Under the pieces are notes generated by a model. That model was not told the origin of the DNA and ran no database searches. It saw only the letters and a program-made list of their open reading frames with translations. Positions 4,651-58,025 of a stretch of 64,000 bases of DNA are shown piece by piece. Location: contig JAFLTZ010000001.1 in the NCBI GenBank assembly GCA_022509045.1, forward strand, positions 1-64,000, written 5' to 3'. Each line of letters starts with the position of its first letter. The first letter of the stretch is position 1. The stretch comes from Muribaculaceae bacterium. Its GTDB lineage: Bacteria; Bacteroidota; Bacteroidia; Bacteroidales; Muribaculaceae. A program made the translations under genes and the position numbers.

Positions 4651-4687
4651 ATATGTATATTTTTTAATTATTTGCTCTTATTTTGTA

Positions 4688-4798: not shown

Positions 4799-4833
4799 CA
4801 ACGTCAAAGAACGATATAATACTTAATCTATTT

Positions 4834-6531: not shown

Positions 6532-6534
6532 CGG

Positions 6535-7341: not shown

Positions 7342-8557
7342 CACGCCTACGAATATTCTCTATTTCTTTAACAAGCTTTTCCGGCAAATTTTTAACATGT
7401 TTGTGGCACTGCATATCTATGGTGTACATTCTTCCGATACAATAATTGGCATGGTCACATCCACAGCGTTCTTCACCATCACGCATACGATTTACAAAAT
7501 CCGGCTCATTCACCAATGCCCTACCCATTTGCACAAAATCAAATCCACTGTCGAGCACTTTGTCTATACCGGTGCGACTAACAGCACCACCAACATATAT
7601 CAGCGGCATTTTAAGTACTTCTCTGAAACGGAGGGCATCTTCAAGGAAATATAGCTCTTTGAAAGGGACCGTAGGAATCATCATTCGCCCAGCCATTTTC
7701 ACACCATATTTCAACCACCAACAGTCCATATAATGAGTCAGTGTCTTAATCGGCATCTCGCCACGCATCACATACATCGGAGCTTTGCTTACAAAACCAC
7801 CGCTAAGCACCAATGCATCTAACCCCAGTTTTTCAAGTTCCTGAGCCACCGTAATGCAGTCATCAATCTCCAAACCGCCTTTAAAACCGTCACGCATATT
7901 GGTTTTCGCCACAACTGCTATTTTACCATCTGCTGCCTTTAAAACTTCTTCGATACACATTTGCATAAAATGCATTCGATTGCTCAAAGTGCCACCATAC
8001 TCATCCGTGCGATGGTTTGTAAATGGCGACAAAAATTGGCTTATCAGATATCCGTGTCCGGCATGCACCTCAACACAGTCAAAACCACCATCCATAGCAA
8101 TCTTCACTGCGTTACCAAATTGGTGCGCAATATCTTTTAATTCATCCTTTTTAAGGCCTCTTACAAAAGTAGGAGAATACATATTAAACCCTGTACATGC
8201 CCCCACCGGAGTTTCTCCACATATTTTTTTATGGGACATATTTCCGCAATGTCCCAATTGCACCGATGCTTTTGCACCGTGTGAATGAATCGAATCTGTC
8301 AAATCACGAAGTCCCGGTACTATTTCTTTACGCAGCCAAAGCTGGCGTGGGAAAGAGAGTCCGCTCTGCATCACCGCTGCGTATGCAACAGTAGTCATAC
8401 CTATACCTCCGGCTGCCACCGATGTATGATACGATTTAAGAGCTTCGCTCGGACTGTTATTTTCTGCCATCCCCTCAAAGGCAGCGCTTCTGATAGTTCT
8501 GTTTCTTAGAGTGATTGGGCCTATTTTACCTTCTGTAAACAGTTTTGATTCGCTCAT
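7313..8557 (-). CDS. Old Yellow Enzyme-family NADH:flavin oxidoreductase, candidate steroid ene-reductase
   Basis: A 414-residue FMN-binding TIM barrel of the OYE / 2,4-dienoyl-CoA reductase group. Visible signatures are QLGHCGNMS, HAGHGYLISQFLSP followed by NHRTDEYGG, and GGAVSR with MGRALVNEP at the phosphate-binding end. The C-terminus keeps a cysteine cluster (RCGCDHANYC, then MQC) fitting the 4Fe-4S site of BaiCD/BaiH-type enzymes. The FAD/NAD domain that follows in those roughly 640-residue enzymes is absent, so electrons must come from a separate donor or directly from NAD(P)H. Genes of this type reduce delta-4 3-keto steroids (5-beta-reductase) in gut bacteria. The upstream neighbour is 5 bases away. 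Confidence 0.88.
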   Translation of the reverse strand: MSESKLFTEGKIGPITLRNRTIRSAAFEGMAENNSPSEALKSYHTSVAAGGIGMTTVAYAAVMQSGLSFPRQLWLRKEIVPGLRDLTDSIHSHGAKASVQLGHCGNMSHKKICGETPVGACTGFNMYSPTFVRGLKKDELKDIAHQFGNAVKIAMDGGFDCVEVHAGHGYLISQFLSPFTNHRTDEYGGTLSNRMHFMQMCIEEVLKAADGKIAVVAKTNMRDGFKGGLEIDDCITVAQELEKLGLDALVLSGGFVSKAPMYVMRGEMPIKTLTHYMDCWWLKYGVKMAGRMMIPTVPFKELYFLEDALRFREVLKMPLIYVGGAVSRTGIDKVLDSGFDFVQMGRALVNEPDFVNRMRDGEERCGCDHANYCIGRMYTIDMQCHKHVKNLPEKLVKEIENIRRRDEKRNSSTK

Positions 8558-8561
8558 ATTT

Positions 8562-9332
8562 TCAATATATAAATGGAATTATATTCTTGAGTTTCAATTT
8601 TGTAAATTCCTCTCCAAATTCATTGCGATATCGATTATTAATGCGTTTTGCTCTTGGTGCAAGATTGGCAAATGTCCATAAAGCAAATACTGCTCCCGCA
8701 TAACTCCACGTGAGTATCGCAAAGCCACACCATTCAACAAACTCGCCAAAATAATTGGCACTCGATACATACTTGTACATTCCACCACGAGGAATGTAAT
8801 GTTTCGTATCGCCAGGCTTACGCAAATTTCTCACTACATTATCGCTATGCAGATTAATTGTCATACCGACAAAGAACACTATCACACCAATGATGAATCG
8901 AATATCTGTAATCCAGCTAACGGGATACGACCCTTCAGGACTAATATAGAATATCCAGCCGCCTTGCATAAAAGCGTTAAACATGTTAAATACTACTCCT
9001 GAAAAGATTATGGATAAGGGCATCTTACTGTTTCCTCTAATCAAGAACGGAAACACAAACGACCGTTGAAAATAGTGCAATTCAAATAACAGCAGAAACA
9101 ACAGTGGCACCAACTCCGATTTTCTATCCGAAAACCACCAAAGTACAAACATCGCTACAAAAACAGGACTTTCCATTATTATCCACCCTACACGATTGTT
9201 GACCGTAGGTCCCCATTTCCTGGTGTACATCATCCCATATCCGGCATCGATATAATGAAGCACCACAAACACCACAAGCGCCGTAATCGACATGGCTATA
9301 AGGAATATATTAAATGCAGCCTCTGTTATCAT
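8562..9332 (-). CDS. Steroid 5-alpha-reductase family membrane protein (DUF1295/SRD5A-like)
   Basis: A 256-residue polytopic membrane protein with about six or seven hydrophobic segments. The C-terminal third has the family hallmark: IPRGGMYKYVSSANYFGE, then EWCGFA, then a basic tail with RYRNEFGEEF. In eukaryotic SRD5A and bacterial homologues this region binds NADPH and reduces the delta-4 bond of 3-keto steroids to the 5-alpha (allo) configuration. It is the first gene of the minus-strand operon, with the OYE reductase 4 bases downstream. Having both a 5-alpha type and an OYE-type ene-reductase beside two SDRs is what makes the bile-acid/steroid reading convincing. Isoprenylcysteine methyltransferase-like folds are the main alternative. 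Confidence 0.85.
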   Translation of the reverse strand: MITEAAFNIFLIAMSITALVVFVVLHYIDAGYGMMYTRKWGPTVNNRVGWIIMESPVFVAMFVLWWFSDRKSELVPLLFLLLFELHYFQRSFVFPFLIRGNSKMPLSIIFSGVVFNMFNAFMQGGWIFYISPEGSYPVSWITDIRFIIGVIVFFVGMTINLHSDNVVRNLRKPGDTKHYIPRGGMYKYVSSANYFGEFVEWCGFAILTWSYAGAVFALWTFANLAPRAKRINNRYRNEFGEEFTKLKLKNIIPFIY

Positions 9333-9378
9333 TTGTTTTAAACAATTCTTTGCTTTTTTCGAAATACTCTTTGGGGAG

Positions 9379-9386
9379 CAAATTTA
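9379..9386 (-). promoter_or_regulatory. Possible -7 element for the steroid-redox operon
   Basis: Complement reads TAAATTTG, a perfect -7 match 46 bases upstream of the first operon gene. No TTG sits at the ideal distance; the nearest is 24 bases away (complement of 9411-9413) and overlaps the divergent plus-strand promoter region. Divergent control is possible. Confidence 0.4.
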
Positions 9387-9406
9387 ACTAATTATTCCCG
9401 AAAAAC

Positions 9407-9438
9407 TTGACAATCGCTTTTATTTTTTCGTATTTTTG
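9407..9438 (+). promoter_or_regulatory. Promoter for the CobW-type GTPase gene
   Basis: TTG at 9407-9409 and TATTTTTG at 9431-9438, 21 bases apart. The predicted leader is about 30 bases before the ATG at 9475. I see no clear zinc or B12 riboswitch-like structure in this leader. Confidence 0.65.
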
Positions 9439-9474
9439 CACTAATAAAAATGCTAATATACTCTGTATAACGAT

Positions 9475-10683
9475 ATGAATACTAACTCAGAAATACCGGT
9501 ACTTTTGCTCACCGGATATCTTGGAAGCGGCAAAACCACTCTGCTCAACCACATTCTATCTAACGAAAAAGGAATTAAATTTGCCGTTATCGTAAATGAT
9601 TTAGGCGAAGTAAATATTGACGCCTCTCTGATACAAAAAGGAGGGATTGTCGGACAAAAAGACGAAGGAGATCTCATTGCCTTGCAAAACGGATGTATAT
9701 GCTGCACTCTAAAAATGGATTTAGTGCAACAACTCGCTGAAATTGTATCCACAGGCAATTTTGACTATATTGTCATTGAAGCAAGTGGCATCTGCGAGCC
9801 TGCGCCCATAGCACAAACTATCAGTTCTGCATCGCGCATAGCACCACATTTGTTTAAGACTGCTATACCAAAACTCGATTGTATTGTTACTGTAGTGGAT
9901 GCTCTTAGAATGAAAGATGAGTTTGCGCTTGGTAATGCTCTTGACAAAGAAAATATTGGTGAAGATGACTTGGAAAACCTCGTTATCGAACAGATAGAAT
10001 TTTGTAATATAATTCTTTTGAATAAAATTTCGGAGGTCACTCCGAAAGAGGCCGCCCATGTACATAATATAATTCGGGCACTACAGCCAAAAGCCAAGAT
10101 TATAGAATGTGACTACACCAATATCGAAATTGATGAAATTATCGGCACGGGAATGTTCGATTTTGAAGATGTTGCAACATCAGCCACATGGGTACATGAA
10201 ATAGAACGAGAGGTGTCACCTGACGAGGAGGAAGACGCTCATCATGACCATCATCATGAGCATCATTGCGATGAACATTGTCATCATCACCACCACGATG
10301 AAGGCGAAGCAGAAGAATATGGCATCCAAACATTTGTATATTATCGACGCCCCGCTTTCGACTTAAATAAATTTGACCGCTTTATTGCTACCAAGTGGCG
10401 AAAAAACATAATTCGTGCAAAAGGAGTATTGTATTTCAGCAATAACCGCCAAATGTCGTTCCTTTTCGAGCAAGCCGGTTCGCAAAAAAAACTCACACAA
10501 GCGGGACTTTGGTATGCAACCGCACCTGAAGAGGAATTATATCGAATGATGCGAGAAGATCCGAGCCTGATGCGTGATTGGGATAAGACTTATGGCGACC
10601 GAATGATAAAACTCGTATTTATCGGCCAAAATCTTGACAAAGAATCAATTATGGCAGACCTTGACGAATGTCTCGAGCAATAA
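9475..10683 (+). CDS. CobW/ZNG1-family GTP-dependent metal chaperone
   Basis: A 402-residue cytosolic G3E GTPase expected to deliver a metal, most often zinc, to client enzymes in a GTP-driven cycle. Walker A is GYLGSGKT (residues 14-21). The family metal-binding CxCC motif is GCICC with Cys74, Cys76 and Cys77, and EASGICEP follows. A very histidine-rich linker (around residues 255-277, with clusters such as HHDHHHEHH and HCHHHHH) precedes the C-terminal CobW_C domain and probably buffers or captures metal. There is no cobalamin gene nearby, so a role in vitamin B12 synthesis is unlikely. It has its own promoter and lies divergent from the steroid-redox operon. Confidence 0.9.
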   Translation: MNTNSEIPVLLLTGYLGSGKTTLLNHILSNEKGIKFAVIVNDLGEVNIDASLIQKGGIVGQKDEGDLIALQNGCICCTLKMDLVQQLAEIVSTGNFDYIVIEASGICEPAPIAQTISSASRIAPHLFKTAIPKLDCIVTVVDALRMKDEFALGNALDKENIGEDDLENLVIEQIEFCNIILLNKISEVTPKEAAHVHNIIRALQPKAKIIECDYTNIEIDEIIGTGMFDFEDVATSATWVHEIEREVSPDEEEDAHHDHHHEHHCDEHCHHHHHDEGEAEEYGIQTFVYYRRPAFDLNKFDRFIATKWRKNIIRAKGVLYFSNNRQMSFLFEQAGSQKKLTQAGLWYATAPEEELYRMMREDPSLMRDWDKTYGDRMIKLVFIGQNLDKESIMADLDECLEQ

Positions 10684-36848: not shown

Positions 36849-39800
36849 TTATTTTACAGGCACATATTTCATTACTTTTGAAGAACCGTCAGTATAGACA
36901 GTTTTCTCAATAACTACTTCATTAACTCCATAAGGAGATGCTATCTGCATACCATTAACGAGATAGTATGAAACTTTAGCAACTTCTTTTGCAGCATCGG
37001 CACCTACTTCATTCACACCGGAACTCTTGTATAAAGTAAGATTGTATGTACGAACGTACGAACCAACGGTAAGCGTTAATGTTGCATCCTCACCATCCAC
37101 CTTAGCGCTCGGTGTAACGGTGTTTCCACTGATAGCAATGTTGCCGGTAGCAGTCCATTGAGCACCTGATGGAATTCCAACCTTAAATTGCTTGGAAACA
37201 TGTTCAAGGGTTTCATTTTCAGCAAGAAGAACTGTAGCAACATTGAAATTATTTACATCAACATCTTTCAAATTAACGAGTGAAGGATATGTAGCTTCGG
37301 CATATAGATAGTCATCGCCCAACTCGGCCTCTACAAGTTCTGCAGTAGTTACACCCTCAATACCACTTAAATTATCATGAGTAAATGCATCGTTTACATT
37401 TGTATCATAGTAGTTATTCATGAGTTGTAAATACTTCATACTTGTATTGTTCGAAGCAATATTACCTACATTTGTTCCTGTAGTAACTATTTCACCTGCA
37501 TTGTAGCAGTCTTCAATCTTCATTGTGTACAGAGGAGAAGCAGCGTTTCCAGGGAAACCGCATATACCGGCAAGTTGGTTTGCTGCACTTATAGTACCGA
37601 AGTTATAGCAGCTGTAGATATAACCACGTCCATCACCGACGATACCTCCTGCACCATAGCTTGTAGTCGTAATATTACCAAAGTTGGCACAACGGATAGT
37701 TACATAAGTAGAATCATGAACATCATAACCACGAATACCTGCTACATAGTAGCTCTTCGCACTAATGTCACCACTATTCCAACAGTCGATGGTGTTTGCC
37801 TTTCCATTACCAATGATACCACCGATATTTGCCGCAACAAGTGAGCCACTACTACTTACCCCACCGGCAGTGATATTACCTGTATTGTAACAATTTTCTA
37901 CTGTAGCGCCATCACTTGTAATATATCCAATCAAACCTGCTGAGTTTGTATAGCAAGTGATATCACCTGTGTTATAACAATTCTTGAATGATATTGGAGC
38001 AGTCTTAGATGATGTACAATCGGCAAACAAACCAGAAACACGTATATAACCATCACTTGTAGCCCCGGTAATATTACCTGTATTGTAGCAACCTATAGCC
38101 ATGGTACCGGCTTTTGTAGATGCTGCGATACCTGCTGCATAACCTTTCGCGCCTGAGGTTAAATCTGCTGTATTGTAGCAATTTACAAGTTCAAATGGTT
38201 CTTCAGCTGTTTGAGTTGTAGAAAGAGCCACGATACCTGCAAGATACTGAGGAGTGGTAATCTTTCCGCTATTAGATGATTCGTAGATTGATGATGGAAG
38301 CAATGCCTCTCCAATCACACCTGCAGCATAATTAGTTGTAGCTGTTACTGAACCTTCATTTTTTGCATTATATACATAAGCAGAAGCACTACCAATCACA
38401 CCGCCTACTTTAACTGTTCCTGTAACTGTACCCTTATTAGAGCATTCTTTTACTACGATTTTAGCTTGTGCAGCAGCACTACCAAGTACACCTCCGGCGT
38501 ATGAGGTCTTTGCAGTAACATTACCTTCATTAGAGCAGTTGGTAATAGAAGAACCTACATATGCGATAGCAGCAATACCACCCGCATTAGTCGTTCCATA
38601 TGTAGAAATAGTTCCCTGATTTACACAGTCAGAAATCTTACCATATAAATGAGCAACAATACCTGCAGCATAGGTATATGCATTAATAGCTGAACCTTTA
38701 CCAAGTGTGATACTCTTTATTTCACCACCGGCACTAAGAGTCCCGAATAATGCACGTCCAAGAGCCTCTTTATTCGTAGTTTCAGCAAGGTAAGACACGT
38801 TGTCAAATACTTTACCATTACCATCAAATGCACCTGCAAATGTATTAGCCTGAACAAACTCTACATCCTTGAAGTCGAGGTCATTTTTAACTTGGAAATG
38901 GTATCCTTGATAGTCGAATTCATATTGATTCATAAATTCGGCAAGACCTGTAAATTCCTTTGCTTCTGTGATAATAAATGGAGATTGAGCAGTACCGTCA
39001 CCTTCAAGTGCCAACGGGTTGAGAGCAAGAGAACCAATCGGAAGTTTTCTTGTAGCACCGTCGAGCGTAGCAACCAAAGTGTCGGTATCACAACCCGTTT
39101 CCACCTTAGCAACTTTAAGAGTAGCACCGTCTATAGAGAAGATTTTCTTGTTAAGAAGTTCCCACTTAACATCTGCTGCAAGAGTTGCGTCTGAGAAAAT
39201 TGCATTTGCATATTGTCCTGCTGCAAGAGTTAGAACTGCTTTTGAGTTTACGGCAACCTGTACAGGAACTGTTTCATATTTCATAGTTGGGTAAACTCCC
39301 GGTTTAACAGCAAATTCTGAATCAGGAAGTAAGTTCGCAGCATTGTTTGTGATAGAATCGGTGAGTAAAGCAACACAACCGACCATATCGCCATTTGCTA
39401 CAAGTCCACATTTTTGAATCTGCGCATCAGCAATACAATTTTTGTAAGTACCAAGTGAGTTCACACCTGCAATCTTACCCAAAGAAACCTTTTCGGCAGA
39501 TGCATTGACATAACCATAGTTCAAAGCATTCTCAACAAGCGCCGGTTTTGCAGCAGTACCAGTAATCTTACCAACAATACCACCTACTTGCTTATATGAC
39601 CAAACATTTCCAGAGTTAACCACATTTGTCAATGTTGTACTTGTTACTGTACCGGCTATACCTCCGGCCCCATATTGTGAAGCTTCTTTTTGATATGGAT
39701 TAAACCAATATGCTGCAACTTCACCGGTGTTTTCGCAATTCTTAATCAATGATTCCGCAGCAGCTTCACCAACAATACCGCCGGCAGTATTGGCATTCGC

Positions 39801-42800
39801 ATATACGCCACCATTATTATAACAATTTACAACTTTACCACCACTAAGATACCCAACAATACCTCCACCTATACCAAAATATACTCGAAGAGTTGAGTAA
39901 TTAGCACAATTTTCAATAGTACCTTCAGAATAACCCGCAATTGTACCACCACGTTGGAAAGTATGGAATTGTGCCTTAGAACCAATATTCAGATTCTTAA
40001 CCACACCATCTGCACCAATCGCAGCAAACAAACCGCAATTGTAATAACTGTTGGCACTTTTAGGATCTACTTGACCCGGCACTGCGGTACCTGTTACATT
40101 ATCAGCAGTAAAGAATTCCACTCCAAGTACCACAAAATTATCAAGGGTATAACCTTTACCATCGAAATTGCCCTGGAATTTCAATGAAGGAGCAAGTGAG
40201 TTCGTTTTATTTTTACAAACCGGTACAATAGTATCACCTTCAAAATCGATATTATTTGTCAAGACAAAATACTTATCGGCAAATGGCATTGTTGCATTTG
40301 AAGTTATATTGGAGAAGAGTTTAAATTCTTCTTTGTTGCGAATGAGCCATGGATTTTCAGCTGTACCTTCACCTTCGAACATAACCGGGGCAATGTTTAC
40401 AATGTAGTATTTGCTTGCAGCTCCGCGAAGAGCAAAGATAGTATCGGTGTGTTGTGTAGTATTGAGCACACCCTCTCCGTTACTAAATCCGTATGCATAT
40501 CCACCTTCTGCATTCTGAGCACCATCTTTGTATCCTACCCAATTCACTTCATTAGCGGTAGAATATAGGAAGTTTTTAGTAATATTGTTAACTGCATCGC
40601 CTGCTTGCAAAGTAAGTGGTGCAACAGAAACAGCAACGGCATCATTCATTGTTATATCCTTAAGGGATGGATACAAACCTTTATTGAACGACCAAACATC
40701 ATTGCTGAATTTGTTGAGAGTTTCACCTGATGTAAGGGTTTCCGTCGATACCCCACCTTCTCCGCCTTCGAGCGGTGCAATCTGGTTGTCGTAGTAACAG
40801 TTATCTACTTCAGCTCCCTTAATTTCACCGATAAATGCACGAGTAGCCTCTGTAGAAGCTGTTTCAATCATACCTGACACATAACAATTTGATATTGTGG
40901 TAACAGGTGTGTTGTCGGATACTGAGGCAGTAATCTTACCAACCAAACCTCCACATGTGGTTACAGCCGGATTGCGAACTATACCTGCGAAATAACAATT
41001 ATCTATAACAGCCTCATAAGCATCACCAACAATACCACCAACGTAGCATTGTGATGTACCTGAGTTAACTACTTGTGCAGTAGCCATACTTGTTGTTAAT
41101 CGTGTATAGCTTAATGCACCGAGCAAACCTCCTACACCAATCTGAACATTTGAGGCAGAAACAGTACCTGCGAACGTACAACCCGAGATAGTAGGTTGTT
41201 CCTGTTCAAGAACGACTTTAGTTGCATGACCAACAAGACCTCCGGCAAATACTTGCTTATCGGAGATAACCACACGACCAGTTACATGAACATTTTTAAT
41301 ATCATAGTATGAACGTCCTGCAAGACCTCCGGCATAACCTTTGGCAGATATTACTGCTGAATTAACAGTGATATTGCTTGCCGGAGCATTCAAATAACCA
41401 ACAAGACCACCCACATTGTATCCGGAAGTGGCATATACTTTAGGATTGTTGATAGTCACATTTGCAACTTCACCGTATGTACGACCTGCAAGTACACCCG
41501 CAGTGTAACCCATAGTGCTCACATACGGATTATTGAATGTTATATTTGATATTTTGGCAGGAGCACCGACAATACCAAAGAGTCCACTATAGTCGTATGC
41601 ATAGTTATTGATAACCAAGTTGTCTATACTGTGCCCTTTACCATCGAGGACACCTGCAAATTGATATGTAGTGTTACCAATCGGAGTATAAGCGGATTGA
41701 ATACTATCAAAATCTATATCGGCATCAAGAGCAAAATATTTTCCACTATATACATTATAGTATGTGACAGTTTCGTTTCCCGACCCTGAAGTGATGGCTT
41801 TGCCACGCAAATCAGTGTTGGTAAGCACATCTTCAGATAACATAACAAAATCTTTTGCACTCTTGATGAGATATGGTTTTTCAGCCGTACCTTCACCCTC
41901 GAGATTAAATTTCACAGGTTTCGGATACTCTACCGGCTCATTCAAAGTAATAGTAGTTTTTTCGTATGAACCGAAAAGTGAGGAAACCGTGTTGTTAGCT
42001 ATACCATAACCGCCAAGGGTTATTGTTTTATTACCAGCATTATACGTCGCCTCGATTGGAGACAGCACAGATAGCGAAATTGTAATCTTACCATCAGCAG
42101 CTGTCGTTTCTGTCATTTTGAAGACAGATAAATCACCCAAAATTGAATAGTATGAAACCGGCTGCGGTGACACTTCCATTGTATTGTTGGAATTGAGCGT
42201 GACATTTAAGTCAGAATACTCATCCATCATAGGAACATACATCACACGAAGTGTTTTATCACCAACCGGATACGCAAAAGCCGGAGTTTTTTGCTCTGTA
42301 ACTGTACGATTTGCTTTCGTGAGGTCTGTACTTCCATCTGCACCTTTATAAACAACGCGATTAGCAGTGATATTGCTATTAAGTGATGTTATGGCAGCAT
42401 ATTCAAGAAAACCTACACCAATAGTAGCACCTGCATAAGTGCCTGTCGTGATAAAAAAACCGAAATTGTCATCTATCACGATTGAATTACCGTAAACATG
42501 ACCTTTAATGTCTGCTTTTGAGTCATACGTGTTTTTATACACATTCATCTTGCAGATGTAGGCATATCCAATAGATGTTCCGGCCTCATTAGTAACAGAT
42601 ACCATCATCTGCGGCTTGATAGTCACTTCGCCGGTAGCCTCGTCAACAGTTGCCTTGATATCTCTGGCATTGTCACCAAAGATAAATCCCTTGAGGGTAA
42701 CACCCGTTGTCCCATCTTTTTCCACAGTCACTGTAGTAGCCACTGTAGCGTGAGATTTATACACTGAGTTAGAATATACGTGCATAAGTGTGTACCGACT

Positions 42801-43061
42801 GCCAACAAGGTCATCGATACTAACGGCTTCAGCACGCGTAGAAACATTACCGGAAACAGACTCTAAAGAGGACAAATCCTCTTCCGTATAACGCACAGAA
42901 GAAGTAACATGGTTTAGAGTAACTGCATCAGCTTCCTTTATTGACTCATTTATATGAGTTACTTCAGTAAACTGAGCACCCTGTCGGGTAGATTCTGTTT
43001 CAACGGCAAATAATCCTATTGTTGCACATGACAACAAAAAAGAGAGGATAATTTTTTTCAT
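36849..43061 (-). CDS. Giant secreted GLUG-repeat protein
   Basis: A 2070-residue exported protein (signal peptide ending LFAVE). It holds three long modules, each opening with a GEGTA motif: LEGEGTAEKPYLI (near residue 387), FEGEGTAENPWLI (near 900) and LEGDGTAQSPFII (near 1357). Each is followed by DFDG/FDGKG-type strands and many GLUG repeats of the form GGLVGx or NCYNTGNIT. Such repeats predict right-handed beta-helices, as in adhesins and surface fibres. An Ig-like domain and a sorting-like tail (YYLVNGMQIASPYG, then VKYVPVK-like end) close the protein. Surface adhesin is the likely role, but binding partner and anchoring are unknown. Confidence 0.82.
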   Translation of the reverse strand: MKKIILSFLLSCATIGLFAVETESTRQGAQFTEVTHINESIKEADAVTLNHVTSSVRYTEEDLSSLESVSGNVSTRAEAVSIDDLVGSRYTLMHVYSNSVYKSHATVATTVTVEKDGTTGVTLKGFIFGDNARDIKATVDEATGEVTIKPQMMVSVTNEAGTSIGYAYICKMNVYKNTYDSKADIKGHVYGNSIVIDDNFGFFITTGTYAGATIGVGFLEYAAITSLNSNITANRVVYKGADGSTDLTKANRTVTEQKTPAFAYPVGDKTLRVMYVPMMDEYSDLNVTLNSNNTMEVSPQPVSYYSILGDLSVFKMTETTAADGKITISLSVLSPIEATYNAGNKTITLGGYGIANNTVSSLFGSYEKTTITLNEPVEYPKPVKFNLEGEGTAEKPYLIKSAKDFVMLSEDVLTNTDLRGKAITSGSGNETVTYYNVYSGKYFALDADIDFDSIQSAYTPIGNTTYQFAGVLDGKGHSIDNLVINNYAYDYSGLFGIVGAPAKISNITFNNPYVSTMGYTAGVLAGRTYGEVANVTINNPKVYATSGYNVGGLVGYLNAPASNITVNSAVISAKGYAGGLAGRSYYDIKNVHVTGRVVISDKQVFAGGLVGHATKVVLEQEQPTISGCTFAGTVSASNVQIGVGGLLGALSYTRLTTSMATAQVVNSGTSQCYVGGIVGDAYEAVIDNCYFAGIVRNPAVTTCGGLVGKITASVSDNTPVTTISNCYVSGMIETASTEATRAFIGEIKGAEVDNCYYDNQIAPLEGGEGGVSTETLTSGETLNKFSNDVWSFNKGLYPSLKDITMNDAVAVSVAPLTLQAGDAVNNITKNFLYSTANEVNWVGYKDGAQNAEGGYAYGFSNGEGVLNTTQHTDTIFALRGAASKYYIVNIAPVMFEGEGTAENPWLIRNKEEFKLFSNITSNATMPFADKYFVLTNNIDFEGDTIVPVCKNKTNSLAPSLKFQGNFDGKGYTLDNFVVLGVEFFTADNVTGTAVPGQVDPKSANSYYNCGLFAAIGADGVVKNLNIGSKAQFHTFQRGGTIAGYSEGTIENCANYSTLRVYFGIGGGIVGYLSGGKVVNCYNNGGVYANANTAGGIVGEAAAESLIKNCENTGEVAAYWFNPYQKEASQYGAGGIAGTVTSTTLTNVVNSGNVWSYKQVGGIVGKITGTAAKPALVENALNYGYVNASAEKVSLGKIAGVNSLGTYKNCIADAQIQKCGLVANGDMVGCVALLTDSITNNAANLLPDSEFAVKPGVYPTMKYETVPVQVAVNSKAVLTLAAGQYANAIFSDATLAADVKWELLNKKIFSIDGATLKVAKVETGCDTDTLVATLDGATRKLPIGSLALNPLALEGDGTAQSPFIITEAKEFTGLAEFMNQYEFDYQGYHFQVKNDLDFKDVEFVQANTFAGAFDGNGKVFDNVSYLAETTNKEALGRALFGTLSAGGEIKSITLGKGSAINAYTYAAGIVAHLYGKISDCVNQGTISTYGTTNAGGIAAIAYVGSSITNCSNEGNVTAKTSYAGGVLGSAAAQAKIVVKECSNKGTVTGTVKVGGVIGSASAYVYNAKNEGSVTATTNYAAGVIGEALLPSSIYESSNSGKITTPQYLAGIVALSTTQTAEEPFELVNCYNTADLTSGAKGYAAGIAASTKAGTMAIGCYNTGNITGATSDGYIRVSGLFADCTSSKTAPISFKNCYNTGDITCYTNSAGLIGYITSDGATVENCYNTGNITAGGVSSSGSLVAANIGGIIGNGKANTIDCWNSGDISAKSYYVAGIRGYDVHDSTYVTIRCANFGNITTTSYGAGGIVGDGRGYIYSCYNFGTISAANQLAGICGFPGNAASPLYTMKIEDCYNAGEIVTTGTNVGNIASNNTSMKYLQLMNNYYDTNVNDAFTHDNLSGIEGVTTAELVEAELGDDYLYAEATYPSLVNLKDVDVNNFNVATVLLAENETLEHVSKQFKVGIPSGAQWTATGNIAISGNTVTPSAKVDGEDATLTLTVGSYVRTYNLTLYKSSGVNEVGADAAKEVAKVSYYLVNGMQIASPYGVNEVVIEKTVYTDGSSKVMKYVPVK

Positions 43062-49910: not shown

Positions 49911-50552
49911 ATGAAAAAATTTTTTACTATTATCGTTGCAGCATGCATGCTAATGCCTGTTTGTGCAGGCAATGTACAAAAATCATTAGACAAAGCCCTT
50001 GCAAAAGCTCAGAAAAAAGAAATGAGTCAGAAAATGAAAGAGTACAAAAAAGGTGGTTATGAAATTTTAGGTAGCCGCACTATGGAGGTAGCTCTTTTGA
50101 AACACTATAGCAAACTTAACGAACTTGGTGACAACGGTTTAGTGTTTGAAGGATACGCAGCAAACACCAAATCAAAAAACACAGCCGAACAAATGGCATT
50201 AAATAATGCCACAATAAAATATGCACAAAAAGCCGGAAGCACAATAAAAGGTAGAGTTGTAAGCGACATTTTTGCCGACGGAACTGACTCTGAAGGTGAA
50301 TTTGAAAAATTTTATGCAGCTTACGAACGAATTGTAGAGCAAAAAGTAAAAAATGTGTTAGTTCCAAGTTACTCGGTAATTAAACAGAAACCCGATGGCA
50401 CATACGAAATACAATCATTTTTCATTGTTGATGAGACAAAAGCTCGCAATGCTCGTAAAGCAGCCCTTGAAAGTGCTCTGACAGAAAGTGAACTTGCACA
50501 AAAATACGCAGCTTCTGTGAGAGGTTTTGTTGAAGAAACTGTTGCGGAATAA
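49911..50552 (+). CDS. Secreted protein with LPP20/FlgT-like domain, first gene of the caspase cluster
   Basis: A 213-residue exported protein (signal peptide ending PVCAG). The N-terminal third is a lysine-rich helix (KSLDKALAKAQKKEMSQKMKEYKK). The rest has the alternating Ala-rich helix and strand layout of the LPP20/FlgT-like fold: EQMALNNATIKYAQKAGSTIKG, then GEFEKFYAAYERIVEQKVKNVL, then YEIQSFFIVDETKA. There is no lipobox, so it is periplasmic. The fold call is a pattern judgement. The propeller/OmpA-like gene follows 48 bases later on the same strand, so it is probably the lead gene of the cluster. Confidence 0.65.
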   Translation: MKKFFTIIVAACMLMPVCAGNVQKSLDKALAKAQKKEMSQKMKEYKKGGYEILGSRTMEVALLKHYSKLNELGDNGLVFEGYAANTKSKNTAEQMALNNATIKYAQKAGSTIKGRVVSDIFADGTDSEGEFEKFYAAYERIVEQKVKNVLVPSYSVIKQKPDGTYEIQSFFIVDETKARNARKAALESALTESELAQKYAASVRGFVEETVAE

Positions 50553-50600
50553 ATATTTCGGTACGAAAAACCACATGTTAAAATACACACTTACGATTTT

Positions 50601-52700
50601 ATGAAAATATCCAAAATAGCGCGAATTATATTGGTCGCGTCAACAGTAGTTACATCTTTTTCTGTTACAGCACAGAGCGATTCTATTCTCCAAACAGCAA
50701 ACCGCAAAACTGAATATGTTTTTAATCAAAAAGAAACACCAATTCAAATTGTGCCATACAATACAATCGTATTCAGTCGTACGCTCCATTCTATAAATTA
50801 TGTTCGTGGGAATGAGCTATATCGCACTAAGAAAGAACTTTCAAATCTTGCTGTTAATCCTTCCGGTGTCAATGTCGGAGTAATAGAAATAGATAAGAAA
50901 GGGAAGAAAGACGCAAAATTTTACTCGACATCTGAAGTTGATACTGAGATTGCATCCTTAAACACTAAAAAATATGGGCAACCCTCGGCAATAGCATATA
51001 CACCTGATGCTCGAAAAGTATTGATTGCCACCGATAAAGGGCTTTTTATATTTGAGCCTCGCAAGATGGAATTTCTGGATATGATAGAACTCGAATTCAC
51101 TCCCGAACAAATGGTAATAAGCGACAACGCATATTATCTAACAATGTCGGCTGGCGATCGTGTAGCTGTATATAACCTCGAACAAAAAACAGTGCGTCGC
51201 GACTGGACGTATGGTGTAGATGTGACAGATATGGCATTTTCTAACGGCAGCAGTGACTTTGCAGTTCTAACCAATGATGGCATTCTTACCATATATGATA
51301 CTCGCTCTTTCAATATCAAAAACACAATAGAAGATTTGGGAGACGGCATTGCTTGTACATTCAATGAAGATGGCAAGTACATTTTGGTAGTTACCTCACC
51401 GGAAACATTGGAAATAATCAACCTCGTTCGTCCTACAGACCGCAACACAATGCTTATAGAAGATGGCGGCGTTAATGATTTGACATTCGTCAAGGACTCC
51501 TCTGACGAATCATTACTTGTGTTTCCCGCTAACATGAAACTATATGCTCGACGTCTTCAAAATCTTGAGCCACATTTTGCAAAATTGATAACAGATGAAA
51601 CCGATTTAAGAATGGCTGAGTGGGAAAAGATGATGCCAGGTGAAAGTATTGAAGATTACAGATTGCGTGTAAATGATGAATCACGAGCACGTCAACGTAG
51701 ATTATTTGAAGATGAAATTTCTACTCAACTCGCAGGCGACCTTTTATCGGGAACTACTATGAGTTTAGGCAACTACGATCGTACAAACCAAGTACTCGCA
51801 ATTGATTTCTCCACCATGCCAACAATTTACCTGCCGGTGCCGGAATCTAATGTGACAGCATTCCACAATGCAGACGACCTTGTTCTTTCAAACGTGCAAT
51901 ACGGACTTCTTCCTGATGATACATTCGAAATAATATACGCACAGGTATTCAATAAAGCAGATGGCAACACCTACGAGTACAATAATCTTGACCGTGTATC
52001 GATGGATTTCATGAGTGGAGATGCTAATATTGTATCACTTGAATTACTACAGCAACAACAAATGGAAGAATTAAGGCTTCAGGAACTTCGCGAGAAGGTC
52101 GTACAGGAAGCTCGCAATATGCAATTGATTTCCAATCACACTAATATCGCTGTTAATTCCAAAGTGGTTCCAGATTATGACGCAGATGGCAACAATATTC
52201 TTAATTATGAAGTAAATTTCACATATCAGGTTGATCCGGAATTTTCAGCAGCAGAAGACTTCCCCCCGGGAAAATATCTTGTAAATGAATCCGGTGCAGC
52301 AAGCTCTATGCTTAAAATTGTTAAGGAAGCGTTTGAAGGCGATTTCGCTCAATATATCAAAGCCGGCAAAAAACTTAAAGTCACAATCTCTGGCACAGCA
52401 GATGCCTCGGCAATCATCAGGACCATTGCTTACAATGGCTGTTATGGCGATTTCGTAGATGAGCCCGTATATGAAAATGGAGTACTTACTGCAATTTCCG
52501 TAACAAAAGCTAATGGCATTAAAGAAAATCGCCAGCTCGCGTTCCTTAGAGCAGAAGGTGTTAAGGACTTTTTACAAACGAATATTGAGAACTTAGACCA
52601 GATGGATGCAAACTACACAATCCGTGTTGATGTATCGGAAGGGAAAGGGAGCGAGTTCCGACGCATCACTGCTCAGTTCACATTTGTAGATGTGTTTTAG
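50601..52700 (+). CDS. Exported beta-propeller protein with a C-terminal OmpA-like domain
   Basis: A 699-residue exported protein (signal peptide ending SVTAQ). Residues about 90-340 form WD40/lactonase-like propeller strands: GKKDAKFYSTSEV, YTPDARKVLIATDKGLFIF, VTDMAFSNGSSDFAVLTNDG, and so on. A middle region is helical and glutamine-rich (LLQQQQMEELRLQELREKVV). The final 110 residues resemble an OmpA-like peptidoglycan-associated domain: VTISGTADASAII, then NRQLAFLRAEGVKDFL, then a weak match to the closing RRI motif. A peptidoglycan-anchored propeller would fit a scaffold role in the cluster. OmpA assignment is moderate because the family aspartate/arginine pair is only partly visible. Confidence 0.6.
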   Translation: MKISKIARIILVASTVVTSFSVTAQSDSILQTANRKTEYVFNQKETPIQIVPYNTIVFSRTLHSINYVRGNELYRTKKELSNLAVNPSGVNVGVIEIDKKGKKDAKFYSTSEVDTEIASLNTKKYGQPSAIAYTPDARKVLIATDKGLFIFEPRKMEFLDMIELEFTPEQMVISDNAYYLTMSAGDRVAVYNLEQKTVRRDWTYGVDVTDMAFSNGSSDFAVLTNDGILTIYDTRSFNIKNTIEDLGDGIACTFNEDGKYILVVTSPETLEIINLVRPTDRNTMLIEDGGVNDLTFVKDSSDESLLVFPANMKLYARRLQNLEPHFAKLITDETDLRMAEWEKMMPGESIEDYRLRVNDESRARQRRLFEDEISTQLAGDLLSGTTMSLGNYDRTNQVLAIDFSTMPTIYLPVPESNVTAFHNADDLVLSNVQYGLLPDDTFEIIYAQVFNKADGNTYEYNNLDRVSMDFMSGDANIVSLELLQQQQMEELRLQELREKVVQEARNMQLISNHTNIAVNSKVVPDYDADGNNILNYEVNFTYQVDPEFSAAEDFPPGKYLVNESGAASSMLKIVKEAFEGDFAQYIKAGKKLKVTISGTADASAIIRTIAYNGCYGDFVDEPVYENGVLTAISVTKANGIKENRQLAFLRAEGVKDFLQTNIENLDQMDANYTIRVDVSEGKGSEFRRITAQFTFVDVF

Positions 52701-52745
52701 TCATTTTGAGAATTCATCGTTTTTTAGAAATCTATAAAGTAGATC

Positions 52746-52774
52746 ACTCGCCTCACTTTGTGAGGCGAGTTTTA
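52746..52774 (+). terminator. Strong hairpin between the OmpA-like and caspase genes
   Basis: ACTCGCCTCAC (52746-52756) and GTGAGGCGAGT (52760-52770) form an 11-bp perfect stem with a TTT loop, followed by TTT. It fits a rho-independent terminator with a short U-run. Since no clear promoter follows, it may only lower expression of the caspase and later genes. Confidence 0.75.
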
Positions 52775-52779
52775 ACGTA

Positions 52780-55359
52780 ATGAGTATGTTTCGTAATCAT
52801 ATTTTCAACATGTCCCATTTCAACAGAGTAATACTAATTATGTGGGTTTTCGCATGTGCAATACCCACTACAGCAGTTGCTGACAACTTAGGTATAGATT
52901 CTATTGAATCTGAAGTATCTGCTATTCCAAACATTGAGAATGCAGTCAATTTATATAAGCGAGTAAAAGACGTGCAATTTTCTGGTGCAGAAGATGACGA
53001 ATACTATCCTATAGTGATTGACGCATTCAAGGAAGCTTATGCAGTAATTCTTGAAGCTGAAAGTGATTCCGTTATAGACCAATGCAAAGGGATTCTCATA
53101 GACTTAAATTCTACTCTTGCGCGTGGTGCCATATATTACTCATCAAATGGCAAAAGTTCTGAAATGTCGGAATTTGCCAAAGCATACGTCGATACACAGT
53201 TACTTCCACAAATGCTCGGTGTCGAATTTCGCCGTGATAAAGATTTATATCCGGCATTAGTGTATTGCGCAGCATCGGGGAGCTACAATTCTGGCGATAT
53301 TGATGGCGCAATAAAATATTTTGAAGAGTATTTGGCTACCGGTGAAACAAAACAACGTGAACAAGTTAGTCTGTTTTACGGACAAGCAATTTTAAACAAA
53401 AAGTTGTATTCACAAGGCACAGAAGCCATCGTCAACGCATCCAACGAATATCCTTCAAATTATAATCTTCTCACCATCGCACTGCAGCTATGTATTGACG
53501 GTAAACGTCGCGACCTTCTTGCCCCGTTGGTGGAAAGAGCTCTCGAAATAAAGCCTGATGATGAAAAACTGCTCAACTTGCAAGCATCGGTATATGAAGA
53601 CTCACACAATTATCGTGGGGCACTTGATATATATATGCGCCTTCAGGAAAAACACCCCAACAGTTTGAGCGTTAATGAATGCGTAGCTCGGTGCTACTAC
53701 AATCTCGGAACTGGATACTACAACAAATCAATCTCGGAACTGGATCAAAAAGAATTGGCAAAACTGCGACGACAAAGCAATGCCTATTTCTCAAGTGCCG
53801 CTGAAAAATATGAAGAGCTCACAGCTAATGACCCCAATAATATAAAATACCTTAAAGCGATGGCAACATCTTATGCATGCCTCGGTAATAAATCGAAAGT
53901 GGAAAGCATAAATATTAGGCTTGCAGCCTTAGGACAGCCGACAATGGCTATGAACACGATGCCTGTGATTATGGGAAATGGAACTACAAAAGTCAATGAA
54001 ACAACAGGTCCACGCAACATTCCATCATATCAAGAATATGCGCTGGAGTATGTGCGTACACATTTGAAAGATTGGATGAAACGCGGTGAATTTGAAAAAG
54101 CTGAGGATTATGAACGTCGAATTTCGCGCGATAACATGCGCCAGGAACAAGAACGTCTTAGTAGTATTATCGCCGACAAATATCTCAAAACCTATGCCAA
54201 CCAACTCGCAATTTCAGAGTTAAAACTTCAACCTTACGATGTAGATAATGAGACCTACGCTGTGAACTCTGACTTTGGTACTGTTGTTATCAATGTTCCA
54301 TTGAACAATCATGAGGCTGAACTATTTAAAACTAATTGGGATGAAATTAAAATTAAAAACCCTAAATTTTTCATTAAACATGACAATATCGCTATCGAAT
54401 CAATAACATTTATCACTCCTGATGGCAAGGAATATGCATATAACGCAGCCGATCGTAATCAATATGAAAGCGATAAAGTTGTTCACGTAGATATTTCTGA
54501 TTTATTTGACAAACCAACCAAAACACCCAACAACAATGCTCAAAAGAATGGCACAACGTATGTGGCAACTATAAAGAGCGATGTCGATAAAAATATTCCA
54601 CAGACATCATTAGTGAACGACCTGACAATTGCTCTTATTATAGCTAATGAAAACTATAATAAAGTTGTACCTGTAAGTTCGGCAAATCACGATGGTGAAG
54701 TTTTCGCACAATATTGTAAGGAAACACTCGGAATACCAGACAATCAGGTCTTTCTATATAAAGATGCTACATACGGTGAAACATTGTCTGCTATTAATAA
54801 ACTGCGTAATTCAGTAAAAGCGTTAGGTGGGAATGTTGACTTGATTGTGTACTATGCCGGCCATGGTGTTCCTGATGAGAAAACAAGCGATGCTTATATG
54901 ATGCCTATTGATGCCGACCCAATGGTAATGGCAACAGCCTATCCACTGAACCAATTTTACAAAGAACTCAACAGCATGGGAGCTGCTAATATAATGGTAT
55001 TTTTGGATGCTTGTTTTAGTGGAGCCAATCGTGGAGATGGAATGCTTGCTGAAGCTCGAGGTGTAGTACTTGTATCCAAACAAGCTCCACCGGAAGGAAA
55101 CATGTTTGTACTAAGTGCTGCTGATGGCAAAGAAACAGCTTTACCATATAAAGAAAAGAATCATGGACTTTTCACATATTTTCTTTTAAAGAAGCTTCAA
55201 GAAAGCAATGGTAATGCAACTCTAAAAGAAATTAGTGATTATGTGACACATAACGTACAAAAAACATCGAGCCTCACGCTCAATAAACCACAAAATCCAA
55301 AACTCACAGTTGGTGGAACTCTGCAAAATGCGATCTCTAAGAAGAAACTTCGTCCATAA
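52780..55359 (+). CDS. Exported TPR protein with C-terminal caspase (peptidase C14) domain
   Basis: An 859-residue exported protein. From the ATG at 52780 the signal peptide ends at TTAVA; an ATG 30 bases later (52810) gives a shorter, cleaner signal and is equally plausible. The N-terminal half is helical with TPR-like repeats (about 190-400, for example LALEIKPDDEKLLNLQASVYE-type units). A linker region (about 400-610) precedes the caspase domain (about 620-850). The catalytic dyad is visible as YYAGHG (His695) and DACFSG (Cys745), in the caspase/metacaspase order. It should cleave proteins after Arg, Lys or Asp; target and activation are unknown. Caspases exported to the periplasm are uncommon. 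Confidence 0.85.
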   Translation: MSMFRNHIFNMSHFNRVILIMWVFACAIPTTAVADNLGIDSIESEVSAIPNIENAVNLYKRVKDVQFSGAEDDEYYPIVIDAFKEAYAVILEAESDSVIDQCKGILIDLNSTLARGAIYYSSNGKSSEMSEFAKAYVDTQLLPQMLGVEFRRDKDLYPALVYCAASGSYNSGDIDGAIKYFEEYLATGETKQREQVSLFYGQAILNKKLYSQGTEAIVNASNEYPSNYNLLTIALQLCIDGKRRDLLAPLVERALEIKPDDEKLLNLQASVYEDSHNYRGALDIYMRLQEKHPNSLSVNECVARCYYNLGTGYYNKSISELDQKELAKLRRQSNAYFSSAAEKYEELTANDPNNIKYLKAMATSYACLGNKSKVESINIRLAALGQPTMAMNTMPVIMGNGTTKVNETTGPRNIPSYQEYALEYVRTHLKDWMKRGEFEKAEDYERRISRDNMRQEQERLSSIIADKYLKTYANQLAISELKLQPYDVDNETYAVNSDFGTVVINVPLNNHEAELFKTNWDEIKIKNPKFFIKHDNIAIESITFITPDGKEYAYNAADRNQYESDKVVHVDISDLFDKPTKTPNNNAQKNGTTYVATIKSDVDKNIPQTSLVNDLTIALIIANENYNKVVPVSSANHDGEVFAQYCKETLGIPDNQVFLYKDATYGETLSAINKLRNSVKALGGNVDLIVYYAGHGVPDEKTSDAYMMPIDADPMVMATAYPLNQFYKELNSMGAANIMVFLDACFSGANRGDGMLAEARGVVLVSKQAPPEGNMFVLSAADGKETALPYKEKNHGLFTYFLLKKLQESNGNATLKEISDYVTHNVQKTSSLTLNKPQNPKLTVGGTLQNAISKKKLRP

Positions 55360-55390
55360 ATTTCAATAGTTTTATATTGACAACAGATAT

Positions 55391-56272
55391 ATGATACAAT
55401 ATTGTAAAATTACGATTGTAATAGTAGTCGCACTATTATCTATCCATGCACATGCAGCACCTCCAATAAAATCGGTTAAAGGGGAATACACCTATTATGG
55501 AGACAAATCCACTTCCCCTGCAGAATGCAAACGCTTGGCTTTGGAAGGGGCAAGACTCGATGCTTTAGCTAAAGAATTTGGCACAATTGTCACTCAGGAC
55601 ATAATGCAAGCTGACCGTATTGATTCAAATGGTGAAAGCAATAAATTCCTGTCTTTATCATCCACAGAAGTTAAAGGGGAATGGATTGCCGACGACGGAG
55701 AACCGGAATATGTAATTTCCCTTGATAAAGATGACAATTTTGTGGTAAATTGCGTAATCAAAGGCAAGGCACGAGAAATATCTAATGAAGCCTCCGAGTT
55801 TGATGCAAGAGTGCTTCGTAATGGGAGTGGACCACAGTTTGCCTCATCTGAATTTCATGATGGTGACAACCTATATCTTTATTTTTCAGCACCAATAGAT
55901 GGCTTCGTTTCAGTTTTTCTATCGCTTGAAGATGGAAATGTGTATCAAATGATTCCATACCTTAACGATTCAAATAACGACGTTAAAATAAAGAAAGGAA
56001 AAAGTTACATTTTTTTCGATCCTAATAAAACAGAATATGATTTCGGGACACCGGACCAATTCGGCATCACAACTGACGGAGTAATAGAGTTCAACAAAAT
56101 ATATGTCTTATTTTCTCCATTATATTTTGCAAGACCTCCAATGCAAATACATGCCGACACCGGACTTCCATCAATGAAAGAAAGTGATTTTTCCAAATGG
56201 CTCGTAAAAGCACGTCGAAATGATCCCAAATTGGGATTAAAGCAAATGAATTTGAAGATTTATCCTAAATAA
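55391..56272 (+). CDS. Exported DUF4384 protein
   Basis: A 293-residue exported protein (signal peptide ending HAHAA). The N-terminal half (about 30-135) looks like an LPP20/FlgT-like domain: SPAECKRLALEGARLDALAKEFGT is the Ala-rich helix, and DNFVVNCVIKGKARE is the closing strand. The second half matches DUF4384: FHDGDNLYLYFSAPIDGFVSVF, then VYQMIPY and FGTPDQFGI, a beta-rich domain often found beside peptidase C14 genes. It follows the caspase gene by 31 bases and precedes the transglutaminase-like gene by 11. It may be a regulator or binding partner of the caspase. Confidence 0.75.
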   Translation: MIQYCKITIVIVVALLSIHAHAAPPIKSVKGEYTYYGDKSTSPAECKRLALEGARLDALAKEFGTIVTQDIMQADRIDSNGESNKFLSLSSTEVKGEWIADDGEPEYVISLDKDDNFVVNCVIKGKAREISNEASEFDARVLRNGSGPQFASSEFHDGDNLYLYFSAPIDGFVSVFLSLEDGNVYQMIPYLNDSNNDVKIKKGKSYIFFDPNKTEYDFGTPDQFGITTDGVIEFNKIYVLFSPLYFARPPMQIHADTGLPSMKESDFSKWLVKARRNDPKLGLKQMNLKIYPK

Positions 56273-56283
56273 AATAGGTTCAC

Positions 56284-57963
56284 ATGAAAATAAAGAAATT
56301 ATTACTGGTTGCAATATCTTTTGCCACAACACCTATCTACGCAGATATGCCCGAAAGTTTTCAAAATTTCAGACAAGGTATCCTTGAAGATTTTCAAGAT
56401 TTTCGTTCTACAATTCTTGATCATTATGCTGATTTTCTTAACGGCACATGGCATGAATACGAAACTTTGGCACCTAAAGAGAAACCTAAGATAATAAAGC
56501 CAATAGATATACCCAATATTACACTAACAAAGCCATCAGACAAACCAATCGAATTACCAACGCCTACACTTGCAGATATCCCTGAAAACGTTTATTCCCC
56601 AGACGACAATATCGCTGATGATACGGCACCAGACAACGATAATGCTTCTGTAGAAGAAAATGAAACGCCCAAAAGTCCTTTCGATAGACCACAAGCTGCA
56701 ACTCCATTGGAAGCAAAGGGCGTTGTTCCTCTCACAGTGAGTATTAAACCCAACATAGAAACAGCTCCGTTACTGCCCACTATCAGTGCCATACCATCGA
56801 CAGTCGCCCCTATAAAAGACATCTCGGCAGATAAACCACAAACAGAACCACAACCTTCTAAGGCAATAAGTTCTAAAGATAATATTAATTTCTATGGTAT
56901 GACCATCTCTGTCCCTAAGATTGATTTTCAAATTATGCAATCAATGGGACGCGTTGCTGATTTTGCCAGAAATTGGAAACTACTTGACAAACAAGAGATA
57001 GCAGAAGATCTTCTGGATGCACTAAAACCGGAAATTAAAAAATTAGGATTAAATGACTATCTTACATACGAGTTTTTATGTGCCTACACGGATTCCAAGT
57101 TCTCTGAGGCTTCATCAGCGCCAAAATTATCTGTGGTGCACTATATACTTTCACATTTAGGATATGATGTGCGTGTTGCGCTTGCTACAAAAACCGGAGA
57201 TCCACTTCTATTAATACCCACTAAACAAGCCTTATATGGTAAAACATACCTCACAATAAACAAAGAGAATTATTATGTCTTTTCCGCTCCGGATGTAAAT
57301 CTAACGGGTTCGCCTATCGCTACCTGTGATTTACCGCAAATTGCTTCATCCGGTAAAAAATTTGATATGAGAATAACAGGCTTAAACTTGCCTGTAAAAG
57401 AATACAACTTTAATATATCGCATGGAGATTTGTGTCTTTCAGGTACACTAAATGCCAATATGATGCCAGTGGTTTATCGCTATCCACAAATGGATATAGC
57501 AGGATTCGCTGAGAGTGTACTCGATGAGAATCTCAGAGAATCACTCGTAGCTCAGGTCAAAGAACAAATAGGATATCTTGATAAACAAGAAGCTATCGAT
57601 AAACTTCTGCAATTTGTCCAATCTGGTTTTGCATACGCCACAGATAATGCGTTTCATGGATTTGAAAAGCCATATTTCCTTGAAGAAAATTTATTCTATC
57701 CAAAGAATGACTGCGAGGATCGTGCCATTTTATACACATATTTGTTATGGAATGCACTTGGAGTTGAGAACCATCTTCTGTTTTTCCCGGGACACGAAAG
57801 TGCGTCTGTTGCATTACCTAATCCTATTAAGGGAACTTCATACGAACATAATGGAAAACGATTCTATATTTCAGACCCAACATATGTGGGGTCACACACA
57901 GGGCAATGTATGCCTCAATATGAGTCGGTTGTTCCAAAAATTGACCTCAAACTTCCGGAATAA
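56284..57963 (+). CDS. Exported protein with C-terminal transglutaminase-like domain
   Basis: A 559-residue exported protein (signal peptide ending IYADM). The N-terminal third is proline- and lysine-rich with acidic/proline stretches and low predicted structure. A middle domain follows (about 205-415). The C-terminal part carries a transglutaminase-like catalytic triad: Cys477 in KNDCEDRA, His504 in PGHESAS and Asp531 in SDPTY. This fold can cross-link, amidate or cleave proteins, or act as a cysteine protease. It ends the cluster; a long inverted repeat follows 17 bases later. Substrate and partner are unknown. Confidence 0.75.
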   Translation: MKIKKLLLVAISFATTPIYADMPESFQNFRQGILEDFQDFRSTILDHYADFLNGTWHEYETLAPKEKPKIIKPIDIPNITLTKPSDKPIELPTPTLADIPENVYSPDDNIADDTAPDNDNASVEENETPKSPFDRPQAATPLEAKGVVPLTVSIKPNIETAPLLPTISAIPSTVAPIKDISADKPQTEPQPSKAISSKDNINFYGMTISVPKIDFQIMQSMGRVADFARNWKLLDKQEIAEDLLDALKPEIKKLGLNDYLTYEFLCAYTDSKFSEASSAPKLSVVHYILSHLGYDVRVALATKTGDPLLLIPTKQALYGKTYLTINKENYYVFSAPDVNLTGSPIATCDLPQIASSGKKFDMRITGLNLPVKEYNFNISHGDLCLSGTLNANMMPVVYRYPQMDIAGFAESVLDENLRESLVAQVKEQIGYLDKQEAIDKLLQFVQSGFAYATDNAFHGFEKPYFLEENLFYPKNDCEDRAILYTYLLWNALGVENHLLFFPGHESASVALPNPIKGTSYEHNGKRFYISDPTYVGSHTGQCMPQYESVVPKIDLKLPE

Positions 57964-57979: not shown

Positions 57980-58025
57980 ATATCAAATAGGCAGGAGTAT
58001 TTTCGTATTTCTGCCTATTTGATAT
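57980..58025 (+). terminator. Inverted repeat after the transglutaminase-like gene
   Basis: A perfect 15-bp stem (57980-57994 with 58011-58025) around a 16-base loop, 17 bases past the stop. A U-run does not directly follow, so it may serve as a terminator with help or as an RNA 3'-end barrier. Confidence 0.6.

Follow-up and report, generated by a model that had tools for sequence, protein, structure and literature searches.

A candidate envelope proteolysis module combining a predicted exported caspase, a propeller protein and a transglutaminase-like enzyme in Muribaculaceae

Bacterial caspases have mostly been studied as cytosolic effectors of death or defence. Among the closest described relatives of the locus considered here, the orthocaspases and metacaspases possess a C14 His/Cys dyad, an acidic pocket and TPR or WD40 partners (PMC3501461, PMC6426788), and the caspase acidic pocket has been reported to accommodate basic P1 residues (PMC6426788). 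A 2012 survey also noted N-terminal helices, possible signal peptides, on some caspases (PMC3501461), and exported bacterial caspases are therefore not new as such. The same survey reported OmpA domains in 14 metacaspase operons and a Trichodesmium protein in which a cytoplasmic caspase is fused to a CHASE2 receptor (PMC3501461); the word "transglutaminase" is absent from its text. Caspase domains also occur in conflict systems of the EACC1 type, together with an effector-associated adaptor domain or NTPase (NCBIfam NF047832; PMC8195603).

A second set of related systems is found among periplasmic cysteine proteases. In LapG/LapD and DvhG/DvhD, an exported cysteine enzyme of the transglutaminase-fold type, with Cys-His-Asp and Asp-Cys-Glu motifs, receives input from a membrane sensor (PMC4359373, PMC13090378). 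In DvhG, the Asp and Glu that flank the nucleophile form a calcium site, and mutating either these flanking residues or the Cys abolishes cleavage (PMC13090378). Finally, Bacteroides genomes carry LPP20/DUF6175/transglutaminase-like clusters; for example, B. finegoldii (NZ_OY725910) has a homologue (25% identity) of the transglutaminase-like protein described below, annotated as hypothetical, beside LPP20 family lipoprotein genes.

The window, meaning the whole 64,000-nucleotide stretch of DNA that was analysed, contains a five-gene set encoding an LPP20-like protein (LPP), a propeller protein (PROP), a caspase (CASP), a DUF4384 protein and a transglutaminase-like protein (TG). It shares the dyad, pocket and partner types of the orthocaspases, whereas the literature on the latter lacks the PROP-CASP-DUF4384-LPP-TG set, the domain that PROP and CASP have in common, and a transglutaminase-like partner. 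Like the Trichodesmium fusion, modules of this kind couple a caspase to CHASE2 (here in relatives), but as separate proteins and with an export signal on the caspase. CASP reaches 71.4 bits against the NF047832 cut-off of 140, and, unlike EACC1-type systems, the module shows no adaptor domain or NTPase and its parts carry export signals. The resemblance to LapG and DvhG extends to the triad, the Asp-Cys-Glu motif and, in relatives, the membrane sensor input; however, the BTLCP (LapG) family is absent from the Pfam matches of TG up to an E of 1, and the module adds a caspase and a propeller scaffold. Neither a c-di-GMP receptor nor a large adhesin was seen adjoining the module genes. The annotated B. 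finegoldii stretch, for its part, lacks the caspase, the propeller and DUF4384. The earlier note knew of no described system with this set, and a search of the open-access full-text literature (as distinct from subscription journals and preprints) likewise found no description of it.

Proteins encoded by the locus

Five open reading frames, all on the plus strand, coincide exactly with the genes first called at 49911-57963. The features of the region are as follows.

49911..50552, plus strand: LPP, 213 aa, predicted exported LPP20-like protein (ORF, export-signal heuristic, family profile, annotation of relatives)
50601..52700, plus strand: PROP, 699 aa, predicted exported WD40-propeller protein (ORF, Pfam, model, Foldseek)
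50769..51500, plus strand: propeller domain of PROP, residues ~57-300 (WD40-type Pfam matches, model, Foldseek)
51570..51995, plus strand: SHARED domain of PROP, residues 324-465 (BLASTP, hhalign against CASP)
52113..52697, plus strand: C-terminal domain of PROP, residues ~505-699 (motif resembling OmpA; part of caspase fusions in L184 and L192)
52746..52770, unstranded: terminator-like hairpin with a T-run in the PROP/CASP gap
52780..55359, plus strand: CASP, 859 aa, predicted exported TPR-SHARED-caspase protein (ORF, Pfam, alignment, export heuristic)
54022..54459, plus strand: SHARED domain of CASP, residues ~415-560 (BLASTP, hhalign against PROP)
54628..55308, plus strand: Peptidase_C14 domain of CASP, with His695, Cys745 and Asp743 (Pfam, alignment)
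55391..56272, plus strand: DUF4384 protein, 293 aa, predicted exported (Pfam PF14326 over cut-off, family alignment)
56284..57963, plus strand: TG, 559 aa, predicted exported transglutaminase-like protein with a coiled N-terminus and a proline-rich linker (ORF, alignment, export heuristic)
57487..57960, plus strand: TG core, with D-C-E-D (Cys477), His504 and Asp531 (alignment, motif)
57980..58025, unstranded: strong 21-bp hairpin 3' of TG, without a T-run after it; a possible end of the unit

The intergenic gaps measure 48, 79, 31 and 11 bp in order. The upstream neighbour of the set is divergently oriented; as read from translations, a dnaX-like gene lies on one side and lysS-, pgi- and carbamoyltransferase-like genes on the other. 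Elsewhere in the window, a single 2070-aa ORF occupies the minus strand at 36849-43061. An Rfam search of the module region gave zero matches.

All five module proteins look like exported proteins. Specifically, a heuristic of hydropathy and small residues found N-termini resembling export signals on five of five, and on zero of four cytosolic proteins of the window, thereby bearing out at the heuristic level the signal peptides that had been assigned to the whole set. The remaining identities of the two smaller proteins differ in firmness. DUF4384 (PF14326) is matched just over the cut-off (27.3 versus 27.0 bits), in agreement with the initial assignment. The LPP20-like character of LPP finds support in iterative profiles and in relatives annotated as "LPP20 family lipoprotein" but not in the LPP20 models of Pfam and NCBIfam, which gave no match to the window protein up to an E of 1.

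Peptidase_C14 matches CASP at 74.7 bits against a cut-off of 21.4 (Pfam E 1.2e-20). Both motifs of the His/Cys dyad, YYAGHG (His695) and FLDACFSG (Cys745), are intact, as had been proposed for this TPR-caspase, and the dyad is intact in nearly all relatives. Asp638 and Asp743, the latter two residues ahead of the nucleophile, are invariant among aligned relatives and were matched to the published Asp pair by motif position only. From these two conserved acidic residues, CASP is predicted to cleave after Arg or Lys. In another locus (L141, 6766-9411), the caspase has D-C-S in place of D-A-C and is probably an inactive version.

PROP had been read as a propeller/OmpA-like protein, and the first half of this description is well supported. 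WD40-type Pfam models match 24 of the 24 PROP relatives scanned, the PROP model has a pLDDT of ~80 over residues 80-280, and Foldseek places this confident part among WD40 structures (WDR5, E 8e-12). Following the propeller is a domain of ~140 residues, termed SHARED, that is homologous between PROP (324-465) and CASP (~415-560), as judged by BLASTP (E 2e-6) and by profile comparison (hhalign, 99.1%, E 6e-19; two other parts of PROP, used as a control, gave <1%). Because of this homology, a first propeller profile drifted into caspases, and the profiles were therefore built per domain. The SHARED domain is likewise present in caspases of other families (L186-L191). At L184, a 733-aa lipoprotein carries the PROP C-terminal domain (229-443, E 3.5e-44) immediately followed by an intact caspase domain (453-723, E 1.5e-67), and a DUF4384 gene adjoins it; a second locus (L192), which ends at a contig edge, shows the same fusion. 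Given the common domain and the fusions in two genomes, PROP and CASP probably work as one unit with PROP as a scaffold, which agrees with the idea that a scaffold protein partners the caspase.

The earlier note further proposed that the scaffold is anchored to peptidoglycan, for which OmpA-like motif residues are the evidence. The C-terminus of PROP retains invariant residues (Asp601, Asn643, Arg650 and Arg687-Arg688) in an OmpA-like order with a ~38-residue insertion. Pfam OmpA is absent from the matches of the window protein and from the commonest families of the 24 relatives, and a profile comparison against three OmpA domains from the window genome gave 9%, or 55% with the insertion excised, the latter being a biased test. 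Anchoring through the OmpA-like C-terminus is plausible on this basis.

TG was likewise reported with an intact triad, and all three residues are present in the expected order (Cys477, His504, Asp531). Its family membership is more distant. Pfam gave zero matches to the full-length window protein, and the core alone scored 12.9 bits with DUF553 against a cut-off of 20.5; among family members, the best E values are 5.8e-5 for DUF553 and 8.6e-4 for Transglut_core, both weak matches. An AlphaFold model from six close relatives had a pLDDT of 42, and a sequence search of the PDB with TG profiles gave nothing credible. A weak match to 4peu obtained at first did not reappear. The nucleophile motif reads D-C-E-D in the window. 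At least 82 of 87 relatives have DC[ED]D there, in contrast to the DCG and NCD of two Pfam-positive transglutaminase-like proteins elsewhere in the same genome. The conserved Asp-Cys-Glu is the motif that DvhG needs for calcium-dependent cleavage, and TG is therefore more likely a calcium-dependent periplasmic cysteine protease similar to LapG than a cross-linker.

This bears directly on a version of the earlier note's proposal in which the caspase would activate a transglutaminase-type enzyme that in turn cross-links an envelope protein. A transglutaminase-like Cys-His-Asp core and Transglut_core matches, though weak, in 18 of 28 members are in keeping with such an enzyme, but its Asp-Cys-Glu fits calcium-dependent proteases, TG often occurs without a caspase, and an alignment inspected by eye showed no conserved basic site at which the TG linker could be cut. 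Cross-linking is accordingly less likely than proteolysis, and this version appears quite improbable. Two TG proteins (L069 and L073) have Ser in place of the Cys and are probable inactive versions.

Conservation, arrangement and a second copy

Among 149 Muribaculaceae genomes, PROP was found in 26, CASP in 52 (46 without the weakest matches) and TG in 53, and all 26 genomes with PROP also possess CASP and TG. At 27 of 30 loci, PROP and CASP are no more than 9 kb apart, the exceptions being G252, G232 (caspase on another contig) and one PROP fragment. For TG and CASP, the same 9-kb limit holds at 33 of 67 loci, versus 0.8 expected, and the two co-occur by genome with a Fisher p of 1e-18; both the expectation and the p value ignore shared ancestry. 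All five genes are found together at ~24 loci in three Bacteroidales families, often in shuffled order, and thus the set is clearly conserved as a module, contrary to the first outcome that the earlier note had named as refuting it. In six relatives from the GTDB collection, the order LPP-PROP-CASP-DUF4384-TG is kept, with one locus cut by a contig end. Indeed, the contig ends of metagenome-assembled genomes break some loci; a six-frame search established that DUF4384 and TG genes are present at L111, L113, L114, L116 and L117. Outside Muribaculaceae, the full set of five is present at L180 and L182; L181 has TG, PROP, CASP and DUF4384, and L183 has PROP, CASP and DUF4384.

Four arrangements can be distinguished. 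Type A, the version in most Muribaculaceae relatives, runs through seven genes in the order CHASE2, a ~285-aa exported protein, PROP, CASP, DUF4384, LPP and TG, and is complete at 12 loci. Type B comprises LPP, DUF4384, CASP and TG without PROP; type C comprises PROP, CASP and DUF4384, with LPP-TG elsewhere; and type D, the form in the window, has LPP in front and lacks CHASE2. The CHASE2 protein of most Muribaculaceae modules has no visible cytoplasmic output domain and, together with the ~285-aa exported protein, is encoded directly upstream of PROP (e.g., L105, 565-2439; L107, 3093-5020). By eye the ~285-aa protein resembled FecR, a candidate identity that was dropped when Pfam gave no FecR match. 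In other Bacteroidota, genes for CHASE2-adenylate/guanylate cyclases lie near TG (L194, 10472-12703; L197, 3081-5219, the latter also with LPP). A search of the window genome (95.9% complete) for CHASE2 gave zero matches.

The most widespread combination is the TG-LPP pair, which is common without a caspase, for example in Bacteroides, indicating that TG does not depend on CASP. We infer that LPP-TG is the old core, to which CASP, DUF4384 and PROP would be additions, with CHASE2 a likely recurrent input. The breadth of this pair also fits an assembly and maturation machinery, in which an envelope structure would be built or stabilised by LPP, DUF4384 and PROP, with CASP and TG serving as its processing proteases and not as the end point of a signalling pathway. 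Both LPP and the DUF4384 protein have FlgT_N-like matches, FlgT_N being a flagellar assembly family, and one module type includes exported CarboxypepD/beta-barrel-like proteins with a C-terminal aromatic residue. However, the FlgT_N matches are weak and far below the cut-off, and CHASE2 sensors at many loci point to regulation, leaving assembly an unlikely though not negligible reading. The CarboxypepD/beta-barrel-like proteins themselves (L122, 10256-12079; L124, 9567-10283; L136, 5399-6924) are a possible outer-membrane component or target.

The genome that provided the window carries a second module on contig C67 (L041, 2683-11192), with the order LPP, PROP, CASP, a CarboxypepD/beta-barrel-like exported protein (242 aa), DUF4384, a 173-aa exported ORF and TG. 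Its core proteins are only 20-34% identical to the five of the window, and it is therefore an ancient paralogue of the window module rather than a recent duplicate. This second copy, the CHASE2 genes upstream in relatives, the SHARED domain and the fusions are all absent from the earlier note. Relative to homologues in related genomes, synonymous sites of the module genes are saturated and 59-78% of residues are kept, and hence the genes are under purifying selection. The five gene trees have correlated distances (r 0.56-0.92 across all loci, 0.66-0.93 within type A). A module would give such a correlation, but shared descent would do the same, so that it counts for little alone.

Hairpins that differ in sequence from that of the window but are alike in form occupy the PROP/CASP gap at L006, L007 and L010, not at L005. 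Such a hairpin may set the ratio of scaffold to protease, or it may split the unit. A hairpin inside the unit, a variable gene order and the occurrence of some parts alone would suit a loose neighbourhood of exported proteins that act independently, but the same genes stay together across families in varying order, a second copy exists in the same genome, and PROP and CASP are linked by the SHARED domain and by fusions of the PROP C-terminal domain to caspases, which together make mere proximity very hard to credit.

Possible roles in the envelope

Given these results, a conserved envelope proteolysis module that performs signal-controlled limited proteolysis is the reading that we favour, at about even chances. 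In most relatives, the CHASE2 protein, as an inner-membrane sensor, and the further exported protein that together start the operon would supply the signal. No CHASE2 gene turned up in the window genome, whose trigger would therefore have to be another protein, possibly PROP itself. PROP would serve as the scaffold for CASP, its OmpA-like C-terminus perhaps tethering it to the peptidoglycan; CASP and the LapG-like TG would cleave one envelope protein or several to a limited extent, with the LPP and DUF4384 proteins as regulatory or structural partners. It is tempting to go further and suggest a periplasmic caspase pathway of commensal Bacteroidales, in which a CHASE2 sensor or its substitute controls a peptidoglycan-bound propeller-caspase complex that cuts envelope proteins together with the LapG-like protease, although this fuller version is decidedly more tentative.

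Under a defence role, also raised in the earlier note, infection or damage would trigger the caspase at the envelope and make it the death effector of a phage-defence or programmed cell death system. Several bacterial defence systems do use caspases as effectors (PMC8195603), the generic caspase model of PADLOC matches CASP (E 6.4e-8), and the patchy distribution of the module, with paralogues in one genome, is of a kind with such systems. Nevertheless, all five parts carry export signals by the heuristic used, and the neighbours are housekeeping genes. PADLOC matched no complete defence system and none of the other four proteins, and a PHROG search of the module proteins gave zero matches. 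Gene context thus lends no support to a defence role, which seems improbable. A plasmid, phage or viral origin of PROP was also considered and rejected, as searches found no plasmid, phage or viral homologue.

If the fuller version, a periplasmic caspase pathway, is true, these loci would constitute a caspase signalling route outside the bacterial cytosol. An exported caspase that is tied to a scaffold by a shared domain and has a second protease-like enzyme as its partner, the whole set being retained by abundant gut bacteria, would represent a different use of the caspase fold. The active sites and partners are defined well enough for direct tests, as is a cultured carrier, L007 being from a cultured Muribaculaceae isolate. 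Finally, L042 (G000 contig C86, 4704-5435) encodes a third caspase, which is short and has an N-terminus resembling an export signal, among genes that resemble those for Ser/Thr kinases, a PP2C phosphatase, an FHA protein and Sel1 repeats (213-9967); this neighbourhood is probably a separate phospho-signalling system.
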